From Vulcanimicrobiota bacterium (GTDB lineage Bacteria > Vulcanimicrobiota > Vulcanimicrobiia > Vulcanimicrobiales > Vulcanimicrobiaceae): a DNA stretch of 32,381 nt. The translations under genes were made by a program, and so were the position numbers. Within the stretch, counting starts at the first letter, position 1. Each line of letters opens with the position of its first letter. The stretch is from assembly GCA_027315505.1 (NCBI GenBank), contig DAHUXY010000125.1, forward strand, positions 1 to 32,381, in the 5' to 3' direction. The notes under the pieces were generated by a model, which made no database searches, had not been told where the DNA came from, and worked only from the letters and a program-made list of their open reading frames with translations. This document shows positions 2,955 to 28,105 of the stretch, piece by piece.

Positions 2955-3155
2955 CCGCCGGGAAGACGCGAGCCCTCGGCGACGCGTGGCCCACGGTTGG
3001 GGGAGCTGCGATTTTTTGGGCCTTCACAGGATGTGAACTTCAAAGCTTGCTTTGCCCAAAAAACGTAGCAGCGTTGGATTTTACAGGATGTAAAATCCAA
3101 CAGCGGTCCCCCAATCGCGTATCCGGTCTCTCCGCCTCCGGGCTACAGCGCTAGC
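2950..3155 (+). repeat. Nested-hairpin intergenic repeat, copy 1 (forward orientation)
   Basis: A structured, non-coding element fills the gap between the convergent stops of the MarR gene and the TM2-like gene. GCTAGC occurs at both ends (2950-2955, 3150-3155). Inside, TTGGGGGA (2997-3004) pairs with TCCCCCAA (3107-3114). Next TTTTTTGGGC (3012-3021) pairs with GCCCAAAAAA (3054-3063) and encloses TTCACA-GGA-TGTGAA (3023-3037) and CAAAGC-TT-GCTTTG (3041-3054). A second hairpin, GTTGGATTTTACA-GGA-TGTAAAATCCAAC, is a perfect 13-bp stem at 3073-3101. Both GGA-tipped hairpins read ACAGGATGT on the + strand. The same arrangement recurs inverted at 26758-26934, with conserved single-stranded words such as GAACTTC after the first hairpin, so this is a repeat family rather than a chance palindrome. 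T- and A-tract stems facing both ways fit a bidirectional terminator. Confidence 0.8.
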
Positions 3156-3161
3156 AGCGCC

Positions 3162-3563
3162 TCAATTCACGCGCATCGGGACGCCGCTGATGTTCGGGCG
3201 TTGCGGGCGCATCGGGGGTTGCGGCGAGGCCGGCGCTTCGACCGAGGCGGGCCAATAGCGAAGTGCGAGCGAGTACGCGAGATAGTCGTTGTACGCGTCG
3301 CAATCGTTCTGGATGGTGAAGCAGCGTACGATCCACAGCGGAATCGTAATGAGGACACCGACGCCGCTGAGCAGCGCGAGCGTCATCAGGATGCCGCGCT
3401 TGTAGTCGCCGAAATAGTACGATTCGCCGCCGACCAAGCCGAGCAGGATGGTGAGCATCAGCGCGATCGTGGGGTCCTTGGCGTAGCGCTGGTATTCATA
3501 CACGAACGTGGCCTGGGCTTCGGGGCGTAGTTCCCGGGCGAGCATCTGCGAGTACGGTGTCAT
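3162..3563 (-). CDS. TM2-domain-like membrane protein
   Basis: A 133-aa protein of unknown function. Residues about 30-85 hold two hydrophobic helices joined by a short turn with GGESYYFGDYKRGI, which resembles the TM2 domain (G-x-H/S-x-F/Y-Y-x-G then a charged turn and a second helix). The N-terminus is soluble (MTPYSQMLARELRP) and the C-terminal tail is Pro-rich, ending PMRPQRPNISGVPMRVN. The ATG at 3563 has a GGAGG Shine-Dalgarno six bases upstream; the much longer open frame to 3815 lies inside the neighbouring DUF255 gene and is not used. It follows that gene by 19 bp on the same strand and is probably co-transcribed with it. Confidence 0.72.
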   Translation of the reverse strand: MTPYSQMLARELRPEAQATFVYEYQRYAKDPTIALMLTILLGLVGGESYYFGDYKRGILMTLALLSGVGVLITIPLWIVRCFTIQNDCDAYNDYLAYSLALRYWPASVEAPASPQPPMRPQRPNISGVPMRVN

Positions 3564-26596: not shown

Positions 26597-26758
26597 ATGG
26601 AAATCCTCGGCACGAATTTCTCGATCACCCTGGGCTCGTGGCGCATGCGCTTCTGCGTCGCCATCGAAGACGTCGACGCCCCCGAACCCGCGAAGCCGCC
26701 GGCACCGCACCGCGTACGAGTCGTGCGGGACGACAACTATCAGCGCAGAAACGCATAG
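26597..26758 (+). CDS. 53-aa protein closing the GntR-ABC operon
   Basis: A short gene three bases after the permease stop, with GGAGG eight bases before its ATG at 26597 and a TAG stop at 26756. The product starts MEILGTNFSITLGSWRMRF with one Cys at 20, has an Asp/Pro-rich middle (EDVDAPEPAKPPAPH) and a basic end (RRNA). There is no transmembrane helix or signal peptide and no family I recognise. Position and ribosome-binding site argue it is real and co-expressed with the transporter. It does not carry the FxGWGP motif. Its stop codon forms the first bases of the second hairpin repeat. Confidence 0.62.
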   Translation: MEILGTNFSITLGSWRMRFCVAIEDVDAPEPAKPPAPHRVRVVRDDNYQRRNA

Positions 26759-26934
26759 GCTAACGCGGCCGGGAAAGGGGAGCGGTGATTGGGGAACCGT
26801 TCGTCAGCGCGCATCCTGCGCGCTTCCTACTCGTATGTTTTTGTGCAACATTCAAAGGAAGTTCGACATCCTGTCGATTGCACAAAAATCACACGTTCCC
26901 CAATCACCGCACCCCTTTCCCGGCCGCGTTAGCC
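26758..26934 (-). repeat. Nested-hairpin intergenic repeat, copy 2 (inverted orientation)
   Basis: The outer arms 26758-26797 and 26895-26934 are complementary at 39 of 40 positions (one mismatch, 26781/26911), with GGCTAAC and GTTAGCC at the ends. Inside are GCGCGCA-TCC-TGCGCGC (26807-26823) and a stem of TTTTTGTGCAA (26838-26848) with TTGCACAAAAA (26878-26888) that encloses TCGACA-TCC-TGTCGA (26863-26877). Read on the minus strand, the order is the same as in the copy at 2950-3155: TTGGGG arm, GATTTTT stem, ACAGGATGT hairpin, GAACTTC, CAAAAA stem foot, CAGGATG hairpin, GGTTCCCCAATC arm. It fills the gap between the convergent stops of the 53-aa gene and the solute-binding protein gene. Confidence 0.85.
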
Positions 26935-26947
26935 GACCGCGATGGAG

Positions 26948-28105
26948 CTAAACCACGAAGCCGCTAGGGATTGCCGCGCGGCTGAACGTGAAGCCGCCCT
27001 TGCCGATCGTATAGAGATAGATGTTCGCTAAGATTGCGTCGCCGTTGAAGTTGAACGAATATTGGCCGACGATCGTCGAGAAGCCCGACGGCTGCTCCTG
27101 GATCGTGTTGAGCAGCGTGAAGCGCGTGGTAGCGTTACTACGCTGCGAGGCGAAAATCAGAAGTTGCGCCGCGGCGTATCCGTACGCCGAGAACGCATTG
27201 ACCGAGCCGACCTCGCCCTCGAAATCGCGCAAAAGTTGGAAGATCGATGGGATACGATCGAGTGGCGGCATGACCGATGCTACCGTTGCGCCGTCGAGAA
27301 ACTTCGCGTACGTGTCGATGGTGGATTGGTTGTAGAAGCCATCGCTGGCGCTGAACGCGCCCGTGTAGCCCTCGAGGCGTAGCGCTTCGACCACGGGGCC
27401 GAGATCGCTCGGCTTGCCGGCGAGAAAGATGTGCGTGGGCTTGAACGCCAAGCACTCTTTGGAGGCGGCCGCGGGATCGATGTGATTCTCGTCGATCGTC
27501 ACGACCGCGGCATCGTGATGGCCGCTCTTTGCATACTGCACGAAGCCGCGCGCGACATCCGGGCCGTAGGCGCCGTTGGTTGTGAGCGCGACGGCGCTGA
27601 CGGCGCCGTGCTGCGGCAGGAGCGTGCGAGCCATGAGTTGGCCTTCGGTCGAATCTTTGGTCGGCAGGCGAAAGATATTGCGGTAGCCGCGCGAGGTGAT
27701 GACGTCGGCCGTCACCGTCGGTACGACGATGGCGAAGTTTGCGTTGGCGTACGCCGGGAGCGCGGTAAGCGTGACGGGAGCGGTGAGGTTGCCGACCATC
27801 CCGATGATGCTCGGATCGGCCTGCGCGATCTGCGCGTTGGTGACCGCGACCTGGCCGTTGTTTTGGTCGTCGAACGATCGGACGCCGTACGATTGCCGGA
27901 GCGAGACGGTAAAGCGATTGGTCTCGTCGACCGCGGCCTGTACGCCTTGCACGACGTTTTTGCCGAACGACGCAAGAGGCCCCGAGAGCGGAACGCTCAC
28001 GCCGATCGTGAGCTGTTGAAGCACCGGCCCGGTAAACTGCGCGCGCGCGATGCGCGGCGCGAGCGTGGCGGCCGCACCGGCCGCGAGAAAGGCTCGGCGG
28101 CGCAT
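26948..28105 (-). CDS. Periplasmic ligand-binding protein of the Leu/Ile/Val type, Tat signal
   Basis: A 385-aa extracytoplasmic solute-binding protein of the branched-chain amino acid/amide family (Peripla_BP_6-like). The N-terminus MRRRAFLAAGAAATLAP, ending in an A-x-A site near residue 22, carries R-R-x-F-L and looks like a Tat signal. The mature part starts LTIGVSVPLSGPLASFGKNVVQGVQAAVDE, the classic first strand and helix of the fold, quoted in pieces: GVSVPLSGP then G-x-x-A-V-D-E. Later IIGMVGNLTAPVTL and FSASDGFYNQ mark ligand-contacting loops. No ABC permease or ATPase for it is in the window. Its ATG overlaps the UbiA stop (TGATG), so it is translated with the quinone genes. The in-frame extension to 28852 runs through ubiA and is spurious. 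Confidence 0.87.
   Translation of the reverse strand: MRRRAFLAAGAAATLAPRIARAQFTGPVLQQLTIGVSVPLSGPLASFGKNVVQGVQAAVDETNRFTVSLRQSYGVRSFDDQNNGQVAVTNAQIAQADPSIIGMVGNLTAPVTLTALPAYANANFAIVVPTVTADVITSRGYRNIFRLPTKDSTEGQLMARTLLPQHGAVSAVALTTNGAYGPDVARGFVQYAKSGHHDAAVVTIDENHIDPAAASKECLAFKPTHIFLAGKPSDLGPVVEALRLEGYTGAFSASDGFYNQSTIDTYAKFLDGATVASVMPPLDRIPSIFQLLRDFEGEVGSVNAFSAYGYAAAQLLIFASQRSNATTRFTLLNTIQEQPSGFSTIVGQYSFNFNGDAILANIYLYTIGKGGFTFSRAAIPSGFVV

Follow-up and report, generated by a model that had tools for sequence, protein, structure and literature searches.

The 177-bp palindrome at positions 26758-26934 of the window, the 32,381-nt stretch of DNA analysed here, is a member of an undescribed, REP-like, non-coding multicopy repeat family of one order of uncultured Eremiobacterota. 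The explanation that probably covers the observations best is that of a REP-like family whose arms are kept matched by template switching, whose core is under selection and which may act as a 3'-end barrier. An order-wide repeat family is thereby added to a phylum known mostly from metagenomes.

Distribution and structure of the family

BLAST of the genome of the window (G000; 2.44 Mb in 291 contigs) with this element, referred to as copy 2, finds about 14 further copies of a core of ~115 nt. The ABC-transporter protein encoded in the window has its best match in Candidatus Eremiobacterota. A second model, built from 70 copies, detects a minimum of 27 copies in G000; in G001, a sister species of the same genus, it detects 31 or more. 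With this model the family is found in 60 of the 117 genomes of the Eremiobacterota class, and only in two families (f1 and f2) of one order. All of the genomes are MAGs or drafts, and copies of the family are over-represented at contig ends. Eight element loci give zero matches at the gathering score of Rfam, copy 2 yields nothing there beyond a sub-threshold match to a miRNA hairpin, and a search of the literature on Eremiobacterota repeats found nothing relevant.

The outer arms of copy 2 (26758-26797 and 26895-26934) are 40 nt long and lie 97 nt apart. They pair at 39 of 40 positions (98% complementary), as the initial annotation had described, and in an inverted-repeat search they form the strongest inverted repeat of the window by a wide margin. 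The predicted RNA fold of copy 2 has an energy of -116.9 kcal/mol (z -15.6) and the DNA fold a z of -16.6; none of 200 shuffles equals either. The family core, of about 108 nt, consists of three helices and conserved unpaired bases. The common fold of 13 aligned copies comprises an outer stem (P1), a hairpin (P2), a long helix with one bulge (P3) and a second hairpin (P4), with TCC loops in both P2 and P4. The core is a three-way junction bearing these two TCC-loop hairpins and closed by the long outer stem.

In copy 2, an element of ~177 bp with no strand assigned to it as a whole, the parts are read on the plus strand as follows. The left arm, which is private to the locus outside TTGGGGAAC, precedes P2 (26806-26824; GCGCGCA-TCC-TGCGCGC), with a covarying 8-bp stem and a conserved TCC loop, and the unpaired, conserved linker TCCTACT (26825-26831). 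The 5' strand of P3 (26832-26848; CGTATG-TTTTTGTGCAA) leads to the likewise unpaired and conserved AAAGGAAG (26854-26861), then to P4 (26863-26877; TCGACA-TCC-TGTCGA), whose TCC loop is also conserved, and to the 3' strand of P3 (26878-26895), which has a single bulged T at 26889; the right arm begins at 26895.

Double changes occur at 18 of 46 pairs in the covariation test, a result reached in none of 500 shuffles, and the double-change cells number 773 as against 213.5 in shuffled alignments and 79-128 in slid controls. Among 3189 stem cells, 2948 are Watson-Crick, 31 G-U and 58 A-C. Information content is higher in unpaired columns (1.40 bits) than in paired ones (0.95 bits). Two further features were considered and rejected: a pseudoknot between the linker TCCTACT and AAAGGAAG (TTCCT/AGGAA), where pairing is possible but the covariation analysis contains zero double changes, and wobble asymmetry as a strand test, its signal being traced to one P3 position only.

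The other copy in the window, copy 1, has its core at 2994-3117 on the minus strand. It belongs to a subfamily that has diverged, and its outer stem is very short. Its homology to copy 2 is established by a match of the R1 covariance model at these positions (70 bits, E ~1e-12); copy 1 was excluded when that model was built and was still recovered. The much better outer stem of copy 2 and its inverted orientation relative to copy 1, both pointed out in the initial annotation, are confirmed, copy 1 being matched on the minus strand. Copy 1 is flanked by a MarR-type ORF ending at 2954 (plus strand) and a gene ending at 3162 (minus strand). The second subfamily comprises copy 1 together with L158 (9995-10119), L167, L195 and L197, and is set apart by its P2, which is longer (GTTGGATTTTACAGGATGTAAAATCCAAC), and by the bulge of P4, which differs (TTCAAAACTTTG).

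Insertion and placement at gene ends

The left arm starts at 26758, where the TAG (26756-26758) that closes a conserved 53-aa gene (26597-26758, plus strand) ends, so the stop codon of this gene touches the element. This gene is without a Pfam match; it is kept behind an ABC permease gene in about ten genera. The convergent gene (26948-28105, minus strand) encodes a periplasmic binding protein (Peripla_BP_6), and its stop codon (26948-26950) lies 13 bp beyond the right arm. In seven other genera only 4-14 bp separate the stops of these two convergent genes. The distance in the window is 189 bp, corresponding to 177 bp over a 12-bp gap, and copy 2 is therefore an insertion of ~177 bp. Loci L272 and L273 (in G066 and G065) hold ~1 kb in the gap of the convergent pair, including a second permease-like copy.

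Five copies in G001 lie opposite empty sites in G000. At two of these (L187 and L192) one arm consists of native spacer over its outer 15-19 bp, and an inverted copy of this stretch lies in the opposite arm, a pattern expected if the palindrome grew outwards. The empty sites could also be deletions, not pre-insertion states. The target duplications that the initial annotation had hoped to locate did not appear: the flanks show no general direct or inverted duplication, and the similarity of arms to flanks has a mean rank of 0.50 over 69 copies. The arms are therefore not simple target duplications: in general they do not resemble what remains of the flanks.

Copies start close to stop codons, the median distance being 7-8 nt. 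In the genus of the window, 23 of 33 copies are situated between convergent genes, compared with 12% of background junctions (p = 6e-12); genes were called by a simple codon-pair scorer that mis-called copy 1 as co-directional, and the corrected convergent count is 24. Outside the genus, co-directional genes flank 24 of 37 copies, most of which are nearer the upstream stop. Divergent gaps are almost free of copies. The convergent placement seen at the two copies of the window thus reflects a strong excess within the genus, but it is not exclusive. The proposal of a REP/MITE-like repeat tied to gene ends is borne out by the multicopy nature of the family, its proximity to stop codons and the empty orthologous gaps. 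The placement fits a 3'-end element, or one for which 3' ends are the only tolerated sites; it could also arise without any function, if intragenic and promoter sites are avoided.

Evolution of the arms and the core

Only ~9 bp, TTGGGGAAC, is common to the arms of different copies, and the remainder is private. In nearly all well-preserved copies the outer stem extends ~30 bp past TTGGGGAAC in locus-private sequence; its median length is 41 bp within the genus, compared with 38 bp in other genera. The two arms of a copy match at 96% in the genus and 85% in other genera. Between loci of G001, arms are ~39% identical (ungapped), whereas cores have a mean match ratio of 0.88; the cores of L175 and L182 are the same but for a single position, and their arms are unrelated. 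In G082, two separate loci (L220 and L221) have identical cores and share ~22 nt of arm, the clearest sign of recent duplication.

Between G000 and G001 the core diverges by 1.1% and the flanking DNA by 8.3%. Ectopic conversion as the sole cause of core likeness was rejected, the orthologous core usually being the closest one (L158/L178 is among the exceptions). In the arms at ten orthologous loci (337 columns), 38 changes are paired and 23 single, while ~0.5 paired changes would be expected in these columns if changes were independent at the flank rate (estimated by us as p squared over 3). In RNA, stepwise compensation usually runs via G-U pairs, which are very scarce in the stems. Very strong selection alone could in principle produce the paired changes. 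The initial annotation took the better arms of copy 2 as a mark of a younger copy. This reading is not tenable: arms diverge between species yet remain self-matched, so that good arms indicate ongoing homogenisation and do not date a copy. One further locus, L157 (G000 contig C118, positions 1-600), is an almost perfect inverted repeat whose arms measure at least 140 bp each and which reaches into a coding region; it lies at a contig end and is possibly an assembly fold-back.

Core orientation is an unstable property of a locus, flipping between orthologues. The core and its flanks are inverted with respect to each other at 5 of 13 orthologous loci. These are four loci and the present one (G001 contig C43), in which the core is flipped with respect to the neighbouring genes and the arms stay in place. 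Given that the genomes are MAGs and that copies occur at contig ends, assembly errors could account for some of the inversions or extended arms.

Mechanism, role and alternatives

The family bears on the question of how stems that are both long and perfect can persist if the two strands have to mutate together: each genome provides dozens of natural replicates, in related species pairs, in which paired changes and inversions can be counted against a near-invariant core. Among the possible causes of the near-perfect arms, template switching is taken to have the best support. It is preferred because arm homogenisation and spacer inversion are its published signature: both have been described for switching between inverted repeats in yeast genes (PMC8604942), and template switching has been proposed to create and maintain RNA hairpins (PMC8794818). 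In the proposed mechanism, replication switching templates at the hairpin would copy one arm from the other, so that the arms stay matched, and could also lengthen the arms into flanking sequence; a switch running through the spacer would invert the core. Purifying selection would keep the core as a folded structure usable in either orientation, and new copies would arise by a mobilisation route acting in trans.

A function is favoured by the strong constraint on the core, by the information in its unpaired columns and by its persistence at orthologous loci. The symmetric fold, the stems restricted to Watson-Crick pairs and the apparently tolerated inversions argue for action from either strand. 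Judged from sequence, the likeliest role would be that of a bidirectional 3'-end barrier between convergent or consecutive units, possibly through termination, insulation or protection of mRNA 3' ends. A more specific formulation, which is rather doubtful, is that of a folded 3'-end element conserved across the order, in which only the shape and a few unpaired bases are selected, the long outer stem is continually rewritten from itself by replication, leaving each copy with a private, near-perfect stem, and the core flips freely because it would work from either strand.

The presence or absence of copies between sister species, the insertion into an orthologous gap of 4-14 bp, the identical G082 cores sharing ~22 nt of arm at two loci and the conserved terminal TTGGGGAAC/GTTCCCCAA would also be expected of a selfish, non-autonomous MITE-like element, placed at gene ends by selection against harmful sites and structured for recognition by a transposase. 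This explanation appears unlikely: the orthologous core diverges 8-fold less than neighbouring DNA, as a dead insertion would not, the near-identical cores of L175 and L182 have unrelated arms, and target duplication is missing. Selection on RNA pairing in an ordinary structured RNA, either a regulatory 3' UTR or a small RNA of, for example, the CsrA/Rsm or C-rich-loop type, would account for the strong covariation and the conserved unpaired bases. It would suit the GGA loops (ACAGGAUGU) on one strand and UCC loops on the other, the occurrence of CsrA in the bacterial family, and the predominance of the UCC strand in co-directional mRNAs of other genera (20 to 4, p = 0.0015). We nevertheless consider it quite unlikely, as G-U pairs are nearly absent, strand bias is confined to one position, orientation flips between sister species and the orientation bias is opposite in the genus (7 to 2). 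A CsrA sponge was also considered: CsrA is present and one strand has GGA loops, but most co-directional mRNAs of other genera carry the opposite strand, which weighs against CsrA.

The bidirectional terminator suggested in the initial annotation, taken in its classical intrinsic form, is favoured by the convergent context and the very stable hairpin, and is quite improbable in view of the sequence around it: no T-tract follows the arms (8 nt contain 1.5 T, compared with 1.46 in the background), a terminator scan gives one weak internal match, no more than in shuffles, and a conserved branched core would be needless. The arms are followed by no U-tract, so classical intrinsic termination finds no support. 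The frequent inversions and the conserved 9-bp inverted ends could point to site-specific inversion of the core by a recombinase, such as a Piv-like DEDD enzyme, acting on TTGGGGAAC/GTTCCCCAA in place of template switching. Such an enzyme is improbable, leaving unexplained the paired changes along the entire private arms. It is very improbable that the pattern arises from fold-back or mis-oriented cores in MAG assembly, despite the many copies at contig ends and the difficulty that near-perfect inverted arms of 35-40 bp pose to assemblers: the same loci, folds and arms recur in separately assembled species, often inside long contigs, and the paired differences are species-specific.

Relation to known systems

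REPs are extragenic palindromes that often lie between convergent genes and are targets of IS110-family elements (PMC1525189, PMC2817692). The present family resembles REPs and BIMEs as a multicopy extragenic palindrome at gene ends that is an IS110 target, whereas a REP is a short hairpin of ~20-35 nt and the family has an element of ~177 bp with a branched core, private arms and an invertible core. The GTAG/GCAG beside P2 merely resembles the GTAG-type 5' foot of REPs. The RAYT partner envisaged at the outset is not found: G000, G001 and almost all carriers lack Y1 transposases (PF01797).

One IS110-type element (Transposase_20-like, sub-threshold), inserted at the P2 loop (CAG|...), forms the end of three G001 contigs, and the present locus in this species carries the other end of an insertion at the same place in P2. 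A diverged relative of this IS occupies the P4 loop of another copy (L284) in G000. Insertion at the CAGGATG loop is seen in P2 of four G001 copies (L193, L194, L196 and L237) and in P4 of L284, and all the copies found of this IS end sit inside family elements. Two G001 contigs, L178 and L194, have the same flank and a P2 with and without the IS, which suggests two strains or alleles in the MAG. IS110-type elements use the hairpin loops of the family as landing sites, in parallel with the targeting of REPs by the IS110 family (PMC1525189).

Like MITEs, the family is short, non-coding and multicopy, with inverted ends and empty orthologous sites; it differs in that arms of different copies have just ~9 bp in common, target duplication was not found and the core is strongly constrained. 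No parent transposon was seen in the loci read. Bidirectional intrinsic terminators are likewise hairpins at convergent gene ends, from which the family is distinguished by the lack of a U-tract, its conserved branched core and its nature as a multicopy homologous family. Integron attC sites are likewise palindromic, with a structure conserved more than the stem sequence. The family differs from them in that its centre is conserved and its outer stem varies, and no array is seen around copy 2. Known template-switch systems involve scattered short inverted repeats in yeast genes and RNA genes (PMC8604942, PMC8794818). The family shares with them arm homogenisation, stem extension and spacer inversion, and here template switching apparently acts on a whole bacterial repeat family with ~40-bp arms.
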